NCBI GenBank assembly: GCA_902550285.1
Contig: CACCYQ010000001.1
Span: 39,617-103,616, forward strand
DNA length: 64,000 nucleotides
Direction of reading: 5' to 3'
Source of the DNA: an uncultured Pelagibacteraceae bacterium
Lineage (GTDB): Bacteria; Pseudomonadota; Alphaproteobacteria; Pelagibacterales; Pelagibacteraceae
Under the pieces are notes generated by a model. It made no database searches. It was not told where the DNA came from and saw only the letters and a program-made list of their open reading frames with translations. The first letter of the stretch is position 1. Every line of letters starts with the position of its first letter. Positions 23,222 through 32,033 of this stretch are shown here, in pieces. The translations under genes were made by a program, and so were the position numbers.

Positions 23222-23761
23222 ATGAATATAGTTAACGAAATAATTGAAAATTTTAAAACCAATAAAGAACTTTACATTGGTGAGAAAGTTACAATTTCTG
23301 AACATATGATACAGACAGCAATGCTTGCGGAAAAAAATAATTCTTCTAAATCACTAGTTTGCGCATGTTTACTACATGACTATGGACATTTTATTGTTAA
23401 AGATCCAGATTTATTAGTTTCAAAATCATTAGACGGAAAACATGAGGATTTAGGATATGAATTTTTAAAAAAATACTTTGTATCAGATGTTATTGAGCCA
23501 ATTAAATTACATGTAGATGCCAAGAGATATTTGTGCCGAAATAAATCTTACTATGAACATCTTTCTCAAGCCTCTAAAGTTAGCTTAGATCTTCAAGGAG
23601 GCTTCATGACTGATGATGAAGCTAAAAAATTTTCATTGTTAAAATATTTTGAAGAGGCAGTAAAAGTTCGCAAGTATGATGATGATGGAAAAATTCCAGA
23701 TATTAAAATTAAAAAAATTGATGATTATCAAGAATTAATATCTTCTCAGTTAATTAAGTAA
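23222..23761 (+). CDS. HD-domain oxygenase, PhnZ/TmpB-like
   Basis: 'YIGEKVTISEHMIQTA', 'LLHDYGHF', 'HEDLGYEFLKK', 'LHVDAKRYLC', 'LSQASKVSLDLQGGFM', 'VRKYDDDGK' match recalled PhnZ metal/substrate motifs. Confidence 0.75.
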   Translation: MNIVNEIIENFKTNKELYIGEKVTISEHMIQTAMLAEKNNSSKSLVCACLLHDYGHFIVKDPDLLVSKSLDGKHEDLGYEFLKKYFVSDVIEPIKLHVDAKRYLCRNKSYYEHLSQASKVSLDLQGGFMTDDEAKKFSLLKYFEEAVKVRKYDDDGKIPDIKIKKIDDYQELISSQLIK

Positions 23762-24622
23762 TTATTTTTTTTGTGGTTTGTTAAATATTATTAGTATTAC
23801 TCCAACAATAATTATAGCACCACCAATAAATAATTCTTTAGTTGGTTCTTCACCTAAAAGAAAAATTGCAGCTAATAATCCAGTAGGAGGGATACCCATG
23901 GTAACTATGGGTAATACTTTATATAAAGGGTTATTTTTTAAAACATAATAGAAGCAACCATATGTAATGGGCTGCATAATAAATCCTAAATAAATTGCAA
24001 TCATCCAAGCTTCAAAACTCGCGGTTCTAAAGTAATTAATTGGATTTCCATCAAAAGTAGCTGAAAGAGCAATCAATAGTGGACCTGAAAACAAACCTAA
24101 CCAAGCAACGAGTGCTAATGGATTTATTTCTTTACTTAAAGGTTTTACTAAAACTTGTCCTAAAGCCCAGACACCCGATCCTATAATTACTAAACTTACG
24201 CCAATGAATTTACCGTCTAAATTTGGAGAACCAGTTAAAATATAAACTCCAACAAATGCTATAGCTATTCCTATTAAAGCCCTTAGTGTTGGTTTTTCTT
24301 TAAGCATAAAATATGCAAACACAACTCCAAAAGGAACTTCAGTTTGAACAAGTAACACAGCTGCTGAAGCATCTATAAAACTTAACCCGGTATACGTAAT
24401 ACTGTACTGCGTTGTATTAGCTATAAGAGAAGCAAAAAATATTTTTTTTAGATAACCTTTTGGTATTGGAAACCACCAAACCAAAAGTAATGCTACAAAA
24501 GTAAACCTTAAGCCCATCAATAAAAAAGGAGGCAAATACTCCATAGCTGGTTTTGCAATAACAAAACCAAATCCTAAAAAGATTGGGACAATCGCGGCTA
24601 TTAATGAATCGCGAAGGGTCAA
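23762..24622 (-). CDS. EamA/DMT-family transporter
   Basis: Ten hydrophobic segments, two EamA-like halves ('TQYSITYTGLSFIDASAAVLLVQTEVPF'); 4-nt overlap with upstream gene. Confidence 0.85.
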   Translation of the reverse strand: MTLRDSLIAAIVPIFLGFGFVIAKPAMEYLPPFLLMGLRFTFVALLLVWWFPIPKGYLKKIFFASLIANTTQYSITYTGLSFIDASAAVLLVQTEVPFGVVFAYFMLKEKPTLRALIGIAIAFVGVYILTGSPNLDGKFIGVSLVIIGSGVWALGQVLVKPLSKEINPLALVAWLGLFSGPLLIALSATFDGNPINYFRTASFEAWMIAIYLGFIMQPITYGCFYYVLKNNPLYKVLPIVTMGIPPTGLLAAIFLLGEEPTKELFIGGAIIIVGVILIIFNKPQKK

Positions 24623-25722
24623 AGATTAAATTTTCTTTTTAAATGTCTCAATTTACCTTCGGTACTATCAAAATCTATATAACAACCTTGAAGAAATCTT
24701 TTACCTTCTTCTGGATCAAATTTGGTTCTACCATGTAAAACTCTATAATTATCCATCATCATGAGATCCTTAGGTTCTAATTTAAATTCTATTCTATTTT
24801 TTTCTGAATTATATAAGTCAGATAATTTTTTTCGTGCCTTATAATAAAAATCTAGCTTATTTTTTTCTAGAATTGGAACATAATCTAATCTTGGACTAAA
24901 TCGTACTTGTTTGAAATTTTTTTCTTCATCTAAATGAATTAATTCTGACCAATCTTCCAAAACTACATTTTTATCAGTAAATCTGAATCTAACTTTTACT
25001 TCAGAAAGAACTTTATAAGTTTCAGGATCATCTTTTTTAAGATTTTCCGTAACAGTGTAACCATCAACAAGAGTTGAAAAACCTCCACTAACTTCATTTT
25101 CAATACAATGAAGTAGTTGAATGCAAGGAACTGGATTTCTGTACGGATTATCCGTGTGTGGAGTTAAGTGTAAAGTTGTATAAGCCAAATCATTTGGATT
25201 TAATTTAGATCTAACATTAAAATGTTCACCGAAATTGGTTCTTCTTACACTACCGATAGAATTAGCAAATTTAACAATAAAATTATCTTCAGTTGGCACA
25301 TTTTTTATTATTACAAATCCATATTGATAAAAAGAAACTAATAAATCATGCATTTCTTTAGAATCAAAAAAATTATCTTTGTATTCAAAGTTTTTTACAT
25401 TTTTTAAAGTTGAGTCCCATTTAATTTTATTGATTGATTTTATGACAGTATCTTTATTTGAAAATTCTGAAGCAAGTTTGTTTAAATCTATTTTTGAACT
25501 AGCACCATCGTTAAAATTAATTTCAATAAATCCATCACTAATTTTTGCTTTTTCAACAGCAACTTCACAGTTCATTGATGAAGGATCAAATAGTCTTTGT
25601 TGAGTTCCTTTGTCTAAAAATTCTTCTCCATCTAATCTTTCTCTTAACCAAAAAGGATGGATTTCTTCTTTAGAATCACCCCTGTTTATAAAAATTTTAT
25701 TTTCTATTAATTCAATTTTCAT
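24619..25722 (-). CDS. Gamma-butyrobetaine hydroxylase-like / TmpA-like 2OG dioxygenase
   Basis: N-term DUF971-like 'IHPFWLRERL', TauD-type 'LHLTPHTDNPYRNPVPCIQLLHCIEN', distal 'NYRVLHGRTKFD'. Confidence 0.82.
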   Translation of the reverse strand: MKIELIENKIFINRGDSKEEIHPFWLRERLDGEEFLDKGTQQRLFDPSSMNCEVAVEKAKISDGFIEINFNDGASSKIDLNKLASEFSNKDTVIKSINKIKWDSTLKNVKNFEYKDNFFDSKEMHDLLVSFYQYGFVIIKNVPTEDNFIVKFANSIGSVRRTNFGEHFNVRSKLNPNDLAYTTLHLTPHTDNPYRNPVPCIQLLHCIENEVSGGFSTLVDGYTVTENLKKDDPETYKVLSEVKVRFRFTDKNVVLEDWSELIHLDEEKNFKQVRFSPRLDYVPILEKNKLDFYYKARKKLSDLYNSEKNRIEFKLEPKDLMMMDNYRVLHGRTKFDPEEGKRFLQGCYIDFDSTEGKLRHLKRKFNL

Positions 25723-25804
25723 GGTTTTCTGAGGATTATTAAAATTTATGCTTTAATCAAGACAAATTAAATAGTAATTAAATAAAAAAAAAAAAACGAG
25801 ATTT

Positions 25805-26602
25805 ATGGGAGCTATAAATTACAGCATTTATTACAGTTTTTTGAACAGGCTAGCAAGGGACCTCAGCAGTTTTTATTTTAAGAAAGTCAACAAAACATTT
25901 TCGGTAACGAACAAACATAAAGGCAGGGGTTATGACCCAGTTACTACTTCTGACAGAGCTTTTGAAAAATTCATTCGTTCAAAAATATCTAAAAAATTTC
26001 CTGGTCACCAAATAATTGGAGAGGAGTTTGGACGTACAAAAAGTAAAAGTGATTATTCTTGGATAATAGATCCAATTGATGGAACCAGATCTTATGTCAT
26101 TGGAAACCCAACTTGGAGTAATTTAATTTCTCTTAATTACAAAGGTTATCCCGTAATGGGACTGGCAAACTTTCCAATGCTTAATAAATATTATTTAAAT
26201 TATAATGATAAAATTTCTTATGTAGTTGAAAATGGAAAGAAAAGAAGAATAAAAGTTAATAAAAAAATTAAATTTAGTCAGGTAAAAGTTTCTGGAGCGT
26301 TTCACGGGTGGTTACCATTTAAAAAGCAAATGAAAATTCCAAAAATACTAAAACTAATGAGATTTAAATGTCCAGACTCTTTAAGTTATGCATTACTTTC
26401 AGAAGGTAGAATTGACGTTGTTATTCAATGTGCAAATAAAATTTGGGATATACACCCTATAATTCCTATAGTTAAAGCAGCAGGTGGAATACTTAGTACT
26501 TGGGATAACAGAGATCCTGTTTACGCAGGAAATGTCTTGGTATCAGCAAATAAATCTATCCACAAAAAAATATTAAAACTTTTAAAACCAGCAATTAAAT
26601 AA
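25805..26602 (+). CDS. Inositol monophosphatase/histidinol-phosphatase family protein
   Basis: 'DPVTTSDRAFEKFIRSKI', 'IIGEEFG', 'WIIDPIDGTRSYVIG', 'IWDIHPIIPIVKAAGG'. Confidence 0.88.
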   Translation: MGAINYSIYYSFLNRLARDLSSFYFKKVNKTFSVTNKHKGRGYDPVTTSDRAFEKFIRSKISKKFPGHQIIGEEFGRTKSKSDYSWIIDPIDGTRSYVIGNPTWSNLISLNYKGYPVMGLANFPMLNKYYLNYNDKISYVVENGKKRRIKVNKKIKFSQVKVSGAFHGWLPFKKQMKIPKILKLMRFKCPDSLSYALLSEGRIDVVIQCANKIWDIHPIIPIVKAAGGILSTWDNRDPVYAGNVLVSANKSIHKKILKLLKPAIK

Positions 26603-26614
26603 TCTAAAAAAAAT

Positions 26615-29095
26615 ATGAATCAGAAAAAGTTTTACAGAGATTTAAAATTTGGGGTTCTAAAACCAAAAATATTTATAATTTTATTTTGCTTATTTTTTTC
26701 ATCACTAGCTTTTGCAGCAGCCTTATCTGTAACATGGTTAGAAAGACATATGGGTCCAAACCCAGGAGGTGCATGTTCAACTCATGATGGACTAGCTATA
26801 AACAAAGATGGCGCAGAGGATCCGCAAGATATTGCTTTCAGTAATGATGGTTTGCAATATTTTACTGGTAATGAATTGATGCAAAGTCCTAATGGATACG
26901 ATATTACAATGTATAGATTAGAGACTCCTTATGATCTTAATACAATGCGAAATGACTGCTCACAGGATAGATTTGATTTATTGTCAATTGCTGGTGATGG
27001 TGGGGCTCCGGGCGTTGTAGGTGGAGGCAATAATTCCGTTTGGACCAAAATCTATGATATGGAGTTTAGTACAAGTGGAGATAAAATATTTTTAGTTAAT
27101 GGTCCATCATATTTAATGCAGTTTTCCCTAACTACGCCTTTTGATTTAAAAACAGCAACATTTGATCTTTATCAAGATTTAGACCCAAATTATGGAAGTG
27201 TTGCTTTTAATCGTGATGGAACAAAAATGTTTTGGCTAGAGCAGGCTGCAGATGCAACAAAAGTAAGAACCTATGATTTAGGTTCACCATTTGATATTAC
27301 ATCATATACTTTAGTTCACACACTTGATCTTTCAAGCACAGAATTAAATAGTGCTGATGGCAGTCAATATGCTGAAGATATGAATTTTAATGATACCGGT
27401 AGTGCCTTTTACATATTAATTAATGATGATGAAGATGAAAGTCTTACAGCTATATATCAATTTAGTTTAGAAAAAAACTACGATATGTCTACTGCAAGTT
27501 TAATAGGTAGTAAAATAATTCTTTTTGATGGAGATGCTGGTATTGCAAAAGGTTTTGCATTTGGTCTTGGAGGTATGAAACTTTTTGTAACAGATTTGCT
27601 AACAGGTGATTTGGCAACAGTTGATAGAACTAATGTATATCAATTAGAATGTCCTTATGGAATAGCTCAATGTACATCAGATCCAACTTCTTCTGTTGGT
27701 TCTCAAGTTGAATTATCAAAACAAAACATAAGTTTAAATGTTTCAACTATTTTTAAAAGATTTGAGTGGATAAAAAGAAATAGAAATAGCAATAACCTTA
27801 ATAATCTTAATGTTTCCATCAAATTCGACAACCCAATGTTAAATTACTGGGTTAAAAAACTTCCTACTAAAATAGTTTCAATTAATGGCCCAGCGGAAAA
27901 TGGTCAGTCTATAACCATTGGTAGTGAAAATAAAAATAGTAACAACTTAAATAATTTTACCACTACCATTAAATCAGATAACCCGATGTTAAGTTCTTGG
28001 ATGAATAAACTTCCAGAAAATATAGCTGTACTTAAGGTATCTCTTAAAGAGAAGTTAGGTAAATATAAAAAAAGTAATTGGTCATATTGGAGCCTAGGAG
28101 ATTTATCTATAAATAATTATGACAAACATGGCTTTGAAAAAGCCAAAGACATTAAATCGGAAGGTTTAACGTTTGGTGCTGATAGAAAATTCGGAGATAA
28201 TAAATTTTTAGGTTTGGCTTTAAGATATGGAGGCAATAAATCAAACATCAGCGACTCACAGCAAAAAACCGATATGGAGTCTTTAACTTTAAATATTTAT
28301 GGAATTATCCCAGTAAATGAGGATAAATATATTAATGCTGTGGTAGGTTTAAGTGCCTTAAGATTTGATAATAAATATTTAGATAAATTATCAGGAGAAA
28401 GAAATGGAAAGCAAGCTTTTACATCAATAAATTATAGAACCAAAAATACTTATGGCAAGTTCAATATAACTCCTACCGGAAAATTAACTTATGGAGTAAC
28501 ACGCTTATCTAAATTTACAGATTTTATAAGCAATACAATCGATTCTCCAGCTAGAAATATTATATATGCAGAGGATACATTTGAGAGTGGAGAATTCTCT
28601 GCTGGTTTTTTATTTGAAATGGATAAAATGGAAGACGAAGATGGAGGAACCTTTCAACCAATGGGTGGAATAGAAATTCTTTATGATTTAACTCCTGACA
28701 TTAATTATAAATATAACTATGAAGGTTCAACCGCAGTTAATAAAGACACAATTTTAGGAAAATATTCAAGAAGAAGTTTAAAAACAGAAATTGGTTTTGA
28801 AAAGGTATATTCAAATGGTTTTACTGTATCTCCAATTTATGAACGAATTATTAGTTTGAATAATGACAAAGGAAAAAATCTTTATATAGAGAGATTTATA
28901 GTTAAACTTAGCAGATCAAATGAAGAGAATAATAGTGAGTTTGTATTTAATTTTAATCCAATAGAAAACAATCAAACAAACCTTAATTATAAAAAAACTA
29001 TAAATGGTTATAATGTAGTCGTTAGCTCAAATTACAGCTCTAATAATCAAATTCCTGAATATGGTGCAAACATAGAAGTTTCTAATACTTTCTAG
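26615..29095 (+). CDS. Surface protein with propeller-like N-term and autotransporter-like C-terminal barrel
   Basis: Signal peptide, 'FNRDGTKMFWL' repeats, 'FKRFEWIKRNRNSNNLNNLN' linker, barrel ending 'GANIEVSNTF'; paralog of 639 and 29215. Confidence 0.75.
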   Translation: MNQKKFYRDLKFGVLKPKIFIILFCLFFSSLAFAAALSVTWLERHMGPNPGGACSTHDGLAINKDGAEDPQDIAFSNDGLQYFTGNELMQSPNGYDITMYRLETPYDLNTMRNDCSQDRFDLLSIAGDGGAPGVVGGGNNSVWTKIYDMEFSTSGDKIFLVNGPSYLMQFSLTTPFDLKTATFDLYQDLDPNYGSVAFNRDGTKMFWLEQAADATKVRTYDLGSPFDITSYTLVHTLDLSSTELNSADGSQYAEDMNFNDTGSAFYILINDDEDESLTAIYQFSLEKNYDMSTASLIGSKIILFDGDAGIAKGFAFGLGGMKLFVTDLLTGDLATVDRTNVYQLECPYGIAQCTSDPTSSVGSQVELSKQNISLNVSTIFKRFEWIKRNRNSNNLNNLNVSIKFDNPMLNYWVKKLPTKIVSINGPAENGQSITIGSENKNSNNLNNFTTTIKSDNPMLSSWMNKLPENIAVLKVSLKEKLGKYKKSNWSYWSLGDLSINNYDKHGFEKAKDIKSEGLTFGADRKFGDNKFLGLALRYGGNKSNISDSQQKTDMESLTLNIYGIIPVNEDKYINAVVGLSALRFDNKYLDKLSGERNGKQAFTSINYRTKNTYGKFNITPTGKLTYGVTRLSKFTDFISNTIDSPARNIIYAEDTFESGEFSAGFLFEMDKMEDEDGGTFQPMGGIEILYDLTPDINYKYNYEGSTAVNKDTILGKYSRRSLKTEIGFEKVYSNGFTVSPIYERIISLNNDKGKNLYIERFIVKLSRSNEENNSEFVFNFNPIENNQTNLNYKKTINGYNVVVSSNYSSNNQIPEYGANIEVSNTF
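27785..28030 (+). repeat. Tandem duplication (150-nt offset) in linker region
   Basis: NSNNLNNLNVSIKFDNPMLNYWVKKLPTKI repeated 50 aa later as NSNNLNNFTTTIKSDNPMLSSWMNKLPENI. Confidence 0.8.
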
Positions 29096-29118
29096 TAGAT
29101 TTAGAAGAGTTTTTGTAA

Positions 29119-29178
29119 AAAAAAATTATCCACATACCCGATTATGGTGTAAGCGTAGAAGTTTCTAGTAGATTTTAG
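29119..29178 (+). pseudogene. Remnant C-terminus of a further paralog
   Basis: Frame reads ...IPDYGVSVEVSSRF-stop, matching QIPEYGANIEVSNTF-stop (29095) and QIPNYGARIEVSSTF-stop (31293). Confidence 0.75.
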
Positions 29179-29214
29179 TATACTATTCAGAATGTGTGGG
29201 AAGGTTAGTTAAAT

Positions 29215-31293
29215 CTGAGAGATTTTAAAAAGTTTTTTTGTATTGTATTAATAAGTCAAGTTTTATTTTTTTCTAAAACTTTAGCAGCACCTACATTGGT
29301 TGATAGTTTTAGCGTAAACTCTGAAGAAACAACACCAAATGGATTATCATTTAACAATGATGGTACCAAGATGTTTATCGTTGGTCATCAAGGTGATGAT
29401 GTTAATGAATATACATTATCTACAGGTTTTGATCTCTCTACCGCCACTTTTGTAGATAGTTTTGATGTAAGCTCTGAAGATGATGACGCAAGACATGCAC
29501 AATTTAACCAGAATGGAACCAAAATGTTTGTTTTAGGTAAAGAAAATGACAGAGTTTGTGAATATACATTAGACACAGGCTTTGATGTCTCTACCGCCAC
29601 TTTTGTAGACTGTGCTAGTGTTTCTGAAGAGGGTCAACCAGATGAATTAGAATTTAGTCCAGATGGAACTAAGATGTTTGTTGTTGGTGAGTCAGGAGAT
29701 GATATTAATGAATATACATTAAGTACAGGCTTTGATGTCTCTACCGCCACTTTTGTAGATAGTTTTAGTGTAAGATCTGAAGAGAATGTGCCAATGGGAT
29801 TAGCATTTACCTATGATGGTACCAAGATGTTTGTTACAGGCTGGCAAAATGACACTATTATTGAATATAAATTAAGTACAGCCTTTGATGTCTCTACCGC
29901 CACTCTTGTAAATAGTTATGCTATACCCGATAGTGTTGAAAACAAACCACAAGGTTTAACTTTTAGTTCAGATGGATCTAAGATGTTCCTTCTGGGTAGA
30001 GAAAATAATAAAGTTTATGAATATACCTTAACTTGTTACTACGGTGTTATTAATTGTATGGATCCAACATCTGATAAAGATGATGTAGCATCTGTTGAAG
30101 TGCAAACTGAATCTGCAAAACAGCTTATACAGCACACTACCTATCCAGTATTAAATCGTATGGAATGGTTAAGAAGAAATAGCAATAGTGCTAATTTGAC
30201 TAATCAAAATATTAAATTTCAGTTTTCAAATGAAATTTTAGCATCATTATCAAATTTAATAATACCAACTTCTTTGAGCAGTAATAATTCCTCAACAGCT
30301 GAACTTCAGTCTAGTGGTAATTGGTCATACTGGAGTGAGGGAACTATTAGTGTTGGGAAAGTAGGAGATTCTATTTCTTCTTCAGCAAAAAACATAAACA
30401 CTACTGCAATTACAATTGGTGCAGACAAAAAAACTGATAATGGCAGAATGTTTGGTGCAGCTTTAAGATTTGGAAATGATGATATTGATTTTGGTAATGT
30501 AAAAAATTCTTTGGGTATAGACGCTGTTAGTTTAACACTATATGAAACTCGTCCACACGGAGAAGGTAAATTTATAGACAGTTTAATAGGAATAGGTACA
30601 TTTAAAACAGATATTAAAAATGCAGTTGGATCAAGCTCAACAGAAGGTAAAAGAGATGGCAATCAAATATTTAGTTCATTTAAAATTCGAGAAACATTTA
30701 AACAAAATGAGTTAAATATTACACCAAAAATAAAACTTGATCTTGGATTTACATCTCTCTCGGATTATAGCGAAAGTGGATCTACAAATTTAAAATTTGA
30801 TAAACAAAATATAGGTACCATAATAGCTTCTATAGGTGGTGCAGTAGATAATAGTAGTAATTTAAGAAATGGTACCTTTAAACCTTATTTTGAATATGAT
30901 TATTTTCTAGATATTAGTCCTTCATCTGAACAAAAAATATCGTACATATCTGATACAAGCTCGACTTATACATTGACTAATATAAATAGTTCAACGCATA
31001 ATTTTAAAAGCAAACTTGGTTTTGACTACATAACAAATACAGGCTGGGATATTACTTCTAGTTATCAACGAACCCAAAGTAAAGAAAATGGTTATAGTGA
31101 TGCTTTATATTTTGGAGCTAATTACATCTCGCGAAAAAATACAGAATACGCTATGTTTTTAGATAACAACAAAGCCTTTTTAAATTATAAAAGAAACATT
31201 AATGGGTTTGATATCTCATTTGGTTCAAATTATAGCTTGATGAGCCAAATACCTAATTATGGAGCAAGAATAGAAGTTTCAAGTACGTTCTAG
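29215..31293 (+). CDS. Surface protein with propeller-like repeats and autotransporter-like C-terminal barrel
   Basis: Listed TTG start (29296) lies after a signal peptide: in-frame CTG 29215 gives (M)RDFKKFFCIVLISQVLFFSKTLAAP with AAGG 10 nt upstream; ~50-aa repeats; barrel ending 'GARIEVSSTF'. Confidence 0.7.
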   Translation: MRDFKKFFCIVLISQVLFFSKTLAAPTLVDSFSVNSEETTPNGLSFNNDGTKMFIVGHQGDDVNEYTLSTGFDLSTATFVDSFDVSSEDDDARHAQFNQNGTKMFVLGKENDRVCEYTLDTGFDVSTATFVDCASVSEEGQPDELEFSPDGTKMFVVGESGDDINEYTLSTGFDVSTATFVDSFSVRSEENVPMGLAFTYDGTKMFVTGWQNDTIIEYKLSTAFDVSTATLVNSYAIPDSVENKPQGLTFSSDGSKMFLLGRENNKVYEYTLTCYYGVINCMDPTSDKDDVASVEVQTESAKQLIQHTTYPVLNRMEWLRRNSNSANLTNQNIKFQFSNEILASLSNLIIPTSLSSNNSSTAELQSSGNWSYWSEGTISVGKVGDSISSSAKNINTTAITIGADKKTDNGRMFGAALRFGNDDIDFGNVKNSLGIDAVSLTLYETRPHGEGKFIDSLIGIGTFKTDIKNAVGSSSTEGKRDGNQIFSSFKIRETFKQNELNITPKIKLDLGFTSLSDYSESGSTNLKFDKQNIGTIIASIGGAVDNSSNLRNGTFKPYFEYDYFLDISPSSEQKISYISDTSSTYTLTNINSSTHNFKSKLGFDYITNTGWDITSSYQRTQSKENGYSDALYFGANYISRKNTEYAMFLDNNKAFLNYKRNINGFDISFGSNYSLMSQIPNYGARIEVSSTF
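29401..29925 (+). repeat. 150/153-bp tandem coding repeats (propeller-like blades)
   Basis: 'tttgatgtctctaccgccacttttgtaga'-like segment recurs with GAT at 29431, 29584, 29734, 29887. Confidence 0.85.
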
Positions 31294-31310
31294 TATACTC
31301 TTATTTAAAA

Positions 31311-32033
31311 ATGAGAATATTAATTCTACAGCATATCAAAATAGAAGATCCTGGTTTTATAAAAGATTTAATGATCAAGGACGGAGCAAAATTAACAAAA
31401 ATAGAATTAGATGAAGGTGAAAAAATTCCAAGTGATCTTTCAAAGTTTGATGCTATGTTTTGTATGGGTGGACCCATGGATACTTGGATGGAAAAAGAAC
31501 ATCCTTGGTTAATTGATGAAAAAAAAGCAATAAAAGAATTTGTTGTAGGTTTAAAAAAACCTTATTTAGGTTTTTGTCTTGGCTGCCAGTTACTTGGAGA
31601 AGTAGTTGGTGGAATAGTTGTTAAGTCAAATATTCCAGAAATAGGAATGTTAAATATTAGTTTTTCTAATAACAAAAACAATGATGCTTTATTTTCAAAG
31701 TTTCCAGATGAAATTACTTCTTTGCAATGGCATTCTTATGAGGTTCAAGGTTTAGAAAATAATAAAGATGTAACTCACTTAGCTTCATCTCCTGAAACAA
31801 AATATCAAATTTTTAAATATCAAAATCATGCATATGGAATTCAGTTTCATATTGAAGTTAAAGATACAACAGTTGGAGAGTGGGGATGCGTGCCAGAATA
31901 TAAATCCGCATTAGAAAAACAATTAGGAGAAGGAGCATTAGATAAATTTGAGAAAGACTCTCAAAAGCACATGCCCAGTATGAACCAATATTCTAAAATT
32001 TTGTACGAAAACTTCAAAAAACTGGTCAAATAA
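31311..32033 (+). CDS. Class I glutamine amidotransferase-like protein
   Basis: 'PYLGFCLGCQLLGEVVGG' nucleophile Cys and 'YGIQFHIEV'. Confidence 0.85.
   Translation: MRILILQHIKIEDPGFIKDLMIKDGAKLTKIELDEGEKIPSDLSKFDAMFCMGGPMDTWMEKEHPWLIDEKKAIKEFVVGLKKPYLGFCLGCQLLGEVVGGIVVKSNIPEIGMLNISFSNNKNNDALFSKFPDEITSLQWHSYEVQGLENNKDVTHLASSPETKYQIFKYQNHAYGIQFHIEVKDTTVGEWGCVPEYKSALEKQLGEGALDKFEKDSQKHMPSMNQYSKILYENFKKLVK

Follow-up and report, generated by a model that had tools for sequence, protein, structure and literature searches.

An autotransporter gene remnant and gene turnover at the IMPase-GATase joint of a SAR11 bacterium

In this study, we describe a short fossil sequence lying between two tandem autotransporter genes of a SAR11 bacterium, which we identify from its homology to gene tails as the C-terminus of a lost autotransporter paralog. 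The window, that is, the whole stretch of 64,000 nucleotides analysed here, belongs to a draft assembly whose 44 contigs add up to 877,035 bases, at 67% completeness, and its host is a member of SAR11 (Pelagibacteraceae), the group being read from named relatives. The two genes, A and B, occupy a variable site at the joint of an inositol-monophosphatase-like gene (IMPase) and a class-I glutamine-amidotransferase-like gene (GATase), and the surrounding features are listed in Table 1. Autotransporter genes have been both gained and lost at this site. We favour, with moderate confidence, a history in which the last gene of the array was lost through a joint made without long homology, after which B was inserted beside GATase.

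Table 1. Features between IMPase and GATase, with positions in the window.
Feature	Position	Strand	Basis or remark
IMPase, inositol-monophosphatase-like gene	25805..26602	+	bounds the variable site on the left
Gene A, autotransporter, 826 aa, intact C-terminus	26615..29095	+	PF03797
Native 3' flank of gene A	29096..29126	+	match to the sequence behind the A-type gene in L065, ...GACTTTTTGTAAAAAAAAAT
Junction of A's 3' flank and the lost gene's tail	29127..29133	+	L065 homology ends at ~29126, gene-tail homology starts at ~29131-29134
Fossil, the 14 terminal codons and stop codon of a lost autotransporter gene, IPDYGVSVEVSSRF-stop	29134..29178	+	tail homology
TATACTATT, GATase-side spacer retained with the fossil	29179..29187	+	TATA-type spacer pattern of GATase
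5' leader of B with GGGAAGG, a ribosome-binding-like stretch	29188..29211	+	weakly alignable with L052
Gene B, autotransporter, five propeller-like repeats and barrel	29212..31293	+	PF03797, repeats, ortholog L052
TATACTCTTATTTAAAA spacer between B and GATase	31294..31310	+	same type in L054, L056, G100, G223, G069 and G020
GATase, class-I glutamine-amidotransferase-like gene	31311..32033	+	right border; named from sequence resemblance

The open frame that contains the fossil begins at 29119 and reads KKIIHIPDYGVSVEVSSRF up to the stop, of which only the part from about 29131-29134 is truly homologous to gene tails. This 45-nt tail agrees at 35 of 45 nucleotides with the tail of A (29051-29095), at 35 of 45 with that of B (31249-31293) and at 38 of 45 with a stub found in a relative, G069. 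As a chance control, 60 first-order Markov windows of 64 kb were searched on both strands, and their best match to the A or B tail was 30 of 45 (mean 26). The autotransporters end in a C-terminal strand with an aromatic final residue (EVSNTF or EVSSTF before the stop), and the fossil correspondingly ends in EVSSRF. Nothing of the lost gene's body was found upstream of the 45 nt, and the homology to gene tails is in-frame and truncated, the pattern by which a gene remnant is recognized. The remnant itself probably does nothing. An earlier note on this DNA had given its sequence and coordinates correctly, and our comparison bears out its reading of the fossil as the C-terminus of a lost paralog, as well as its observation that TAGTATACT follows both the fossil stop and the stop of B. 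Whether the lost gene should be called a fourth copy, as it was there, depends on how copies are counted: the window does contain a third autotransporter-like gene (594-2897), but it is not adjacent. It is a 767-aa open frame with 35% amino acid identity to B, and before it lies the tail of a further gene, ending in FTYKFAF and a stop at about 575, for which we claim no autotransporter identity.

Both flanking genes match PF03797 above the cut-off of 26 bits (A, E = 3e-19, 70.1 bits; B, E = 1e-29, 104.1 bits), and both have signal-like N-termini, as judged by eye. At a different locus, AG-365-M21 carries a whole-length ortholog of B (L052), with 80% amino acid identity and 77-96% nucleotide identity per 100-nt window. 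The dN/dS of B relative to this ortholog is 0.34, which points to purifying selection and suggests that the inserted gene is probably a working one; its signal region also still looks constrained (dN/dS 0.40 over 26 codons). No ATG, GTG or TTG start was found ahead of the signal peptide in B (window 29180-29220) or in the ortholog (L052:2026-2060). In each, an in-frame stop closely precedes the signal peptide region and is followed by a CTG behind a GG-rich stretch, and a non-AUG start is likely for B, at the CTG at about 29215. Separately, a nucleotide-conserved leader, ATGAAAAAACTTTTAGGGATCGTGGTTCTGGG (MKKLLGIVVLG), recurs before unrelated SAR11 genes (L053:4990, L053:7139, L053:7633, L055:5957 and L107:5962) and either flanks B-type genes as a stub or is fused to them; recombination may use it as a seam. 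One copy, apparently a stub, is found in the window's own genome (G000:C40:2312, L240). Gene A, in turn, is a mosaic when compared with a gene of AG-430-K07 (L082), the nucleotide identity being 96% in the signal peptide, about 44-67% in the passenger and 97-99% in the linker and early barrel. In this comparison (window 26600-28500 and L082:3421-5400), the exposed domain of A seems to have been exchanged while the flanks on either side stayed conserved.

We located GATase across 399 genomes of the genus, an evenly drawn set in which 227 gave a match (E ≤ 1e-80), and took the upstream DNA from about 60 of them, plus further loci. The genomes fetched were picked mostly by GATase similarity, and some of them stand under two locus numbers; rows with identical joints were merged, and the counts are of distinct joints seen rather than of a population sample. 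There were 38 such joints, the window included: 23 empty, 14 with one or two autotransporters and one with a stub only. In the 23 empty cases IMPase and GATase are directly adjacent, with a gap of 5-40 nt (the higher values in this range reflect alignment ends), and this may be the original state. A single autotransporter is present in eight (G161, G240, G323/AG-365-B17, G135, G100, G050, G223 and G020) and two are present in six (G009, G125/AG-439-C02, G042, G058, AG-365-O14 and the window). The earlier note had named, as evidence against its reading, related strains that all share the junction without copy-number variation or an alignable source copy; among relatives the site in fact holds from 0 to 2 copies. 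In SAG-MED15 (L057:8097-8130), TATAATCTTATCTAGAAATGAAAGTATAA after the array resembles the start, three codons long, of a GATase gene that has been deleted, and possibly represents a remnant at the opposite side of this joint.

Three of these relatives hold stubs comparable to the fossil. G069 has IMPase, the stub SLHLIPDYGANIELSSRF with its stop, TATACT and GATase, with no autotransporter. In G020, the closest relative (about 96% nucleotide identity upstream of the array, and mostly 93-99% on the IMPase side over 23230-26530), a different first gene is followed by VLSRF and a stop, TATACT and GATase, and B is missing. AG-365-O14 (L065) has two complete genes and then GSTIEVSSTF and a stop, TATACT and GATase. 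The stub is about 45 nt long in the window and in G069 and 18 nt in G020, and the preserved part of all four starts 18-46 nt from the stop, the source genes being about 2 kb. No genome with the exact junction of the window was found. The like stubs that these three independent assemblies hold at the same site make it very improbable that the fossil is an artefact of assembly or amplification, a worry that the incomplete and fragmented state of the draft would otherwise raise.

The SRF codons, AGTAGATT(T/C)TAG (AGT AGA TT(T/C) TAG), are common to the stubs of the window, G020 and G069 only. A search of 355 relatives with the tail pattern, allowing up to 3 mismatches and leaving out one out-of-order match in G458, found no intact source gene ending in SRF and returned only stubs and T-ending tails. 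To judge from these shared codons, the three stubs may go back to a single lost gene, or even to a single old stub. The spacer behind the fossil stop is similarly informative. On the GATase side, the pattern TAGTATA(A/C)T...ATG, in which a TATA(A/C)T spacer and about 10 bases precede the GATase start, occurs in 8 of the 399 genus genomes, the window included; a ninth match, TATAAT in G015, proved to be unrelated sequence. After upstream gene copies, TATACT is absent in the tails listed, except for a partial TATATT in G042. The fossil carries TAGTATACT, which is the GATase-side spacer, so that the lost gene most likely once stood beside GATase, and B was most likely placed later between the stub and GATase.

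How, then, was the body of this gene removed? The earlier note had proposed a deletion within the tandem array by homologous recombination. Tandem divergent paralogs with similar 3' ends are indeed present here, and a comparable loss has been described in SAR11 hypervariable region 1, where, according to that account, HTCC1062 lacks one of the four tandem autotransporters of HTCC1002 (PMC2217521). However, a simple RecA-type deletion predicts a single hybrid tail, in register, whereas here the complete gene A runs on into about 31 bases of its native flank, and a second, partial tail comes only after these. We therefore regard homologous deletion as improbable. The TTTCTAGTAGATTT(T)AG sequence noted previously is present at both 29089 and 29162. 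Relative to the gene homology, however, it is shifted by 9-10 nt, and the first copy consists of A's stop and native 3' flank, as the TTTCTAGTTGATTTATAAGACTTTTTGTAAAAAAAAAT behind the A-type gene of AG-365-O14 shows. For the same reasons, the TTTCTAGTAGATTTAG repeat, which is out of register and whose first copy is A's native 3' flank, was rejected as a crossover site.

The completeness of A, the native flank and the second tail after it make the joint look as if it was made without long homology. In the history that we favour, an autotransporter gene would have stood last in a small array, directly before GATase, and its body would have been lost when A's 3' flank (about 29126) was joined to the gene's own tail (about 29131). 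B and its leader would later have been inserted between the surviving stub and GATase. The 3' end of B and its spacer resemble other GATase-adjacent copies: over its last 300 nt, B shares 90-95% identity with the GATase-adjacent copy of AG-365-B17 (L054), as against 77-84% with L052. This suggests that B arrived on GATase-homologous DNA. Its right end would thus have been joined by homologous recombination, and its left end with scarcely any homology or none, in the manner of homology-facilitated illegitimate recombination. At this left end, clear identity with L052 begins at about 29211, and no long homology was seen at 29187-29211. The first 200 nt of GATase are 91-93% identical to G020 and the next 300 nt 97-98%, with other dips downstream; comparison along GATase with G020, L054 and L056 leaves an imported segment reaching into this gene unproven.

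A serious alternative is that the stub predates both A and B. The whole array would have been deleted, as in G069, and A would then have been inserted on the left and B on the right, so that the stub may be older than A instead of marking a deletion in the present array. The main claim is the same as in our preferred explanation, and the two differ in the order of events. G069 displays exactly such a stub-only state, the SRF codons occur in three genomes as stubs only, and the genes upstream of the stub differ between G020 and the window. However, the differing stub lengths would require at least one further deletion, and A bears a native 3' flank in common with L065. On balance, we treat this order of events as possible rather than probable.

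It could also be asked whether the tail has been retained for a purpose, as a control element (be it a promoter or a region where translation starts) for the gene that follows, such that further deletion would harm GATase. This would be compatible with either history. The starts of all four stubs cluster close to the stop, and GATase has kept TATACT in the stub-only cases. Empty sites have no TATACT, yet GATase there follows a few bases to a few tens of bases behind IMPase. Against such a role, a consensus scan found no sigma-70-like promoter at GATase or on the coding strand of the fossil, and the TATAMT/TATATT box is missing at 4 of the 15 non-empty sites. Furthermore, three of the four stubs may have common ancestry, and the same clustering would result if joints formed at conserved tails. 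We therefore think a control function unlikely. An extension of the idea, namely that the gene 3' end and TAGTATACT form a GATase control element and that the undeletable stub serves as a fixed docking end for surface-gene swaps, seems to us slightly more doubtful still.

The process favoured here, loss of the last gene followed by insertion of B, has relatives among known systems, and the site illustrates a known process at good resolution. The deletion of a tandem autotransporter in SAR11 is already on record in the HTCC1062/HTCC1002 comparison (PMC2217521), which, like ours, concerns tandem divergent type V autotransporter paralogs and gene loss between close relatives. In contrast to that account, whose description of the loss mentions no remnant, the present site lies at the IMPase-GATase joint, and the remnant fixes the identity and position of the lost copy. 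In Vibrio cholerae, effector genes of the type VI secretion system (T6SS) are displaced sequentially and the old 3' ends are shifted back, for which homology-facilitated illegitimate recombination was proposed; Rhs C-terminal displacement is cited in the same work (PMC5361080). There, as would be the case here, an incoming module has one homologous and one non-homologous end, and the old 3' end survives as an orphan. However, the T6SS survivor is often a useful immunity gene, whereas ours comprises 14 codons of no obvious use, and the homologous anchor, which is upstream in T6SS and Rhs displacement, would be downstream here. The fossil is of the same kind as the pseudogene stubs at the borders of flexible genomic islands, in that a short truncated end is left by gene turnover, but it is unusual among gene remnants in that the same end has been kept in several relatives. 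No such remnants in SAR11 were found in searches of the open-access literature.

Selection on exposed structures, for example through phage attack, is thought to drive the turnover of SAR11 surface proteins. The IMPase-GATase joint offers a readable series of states at a single joint of core genes: empty, stub only, one gene, two genes, and two genes with a stub. The stubs fix the positions of lost genes and suggest that joining without long homology operates beside homologous exchange. Surface-protein genes have been repeatedly swapped in and out at this joint.
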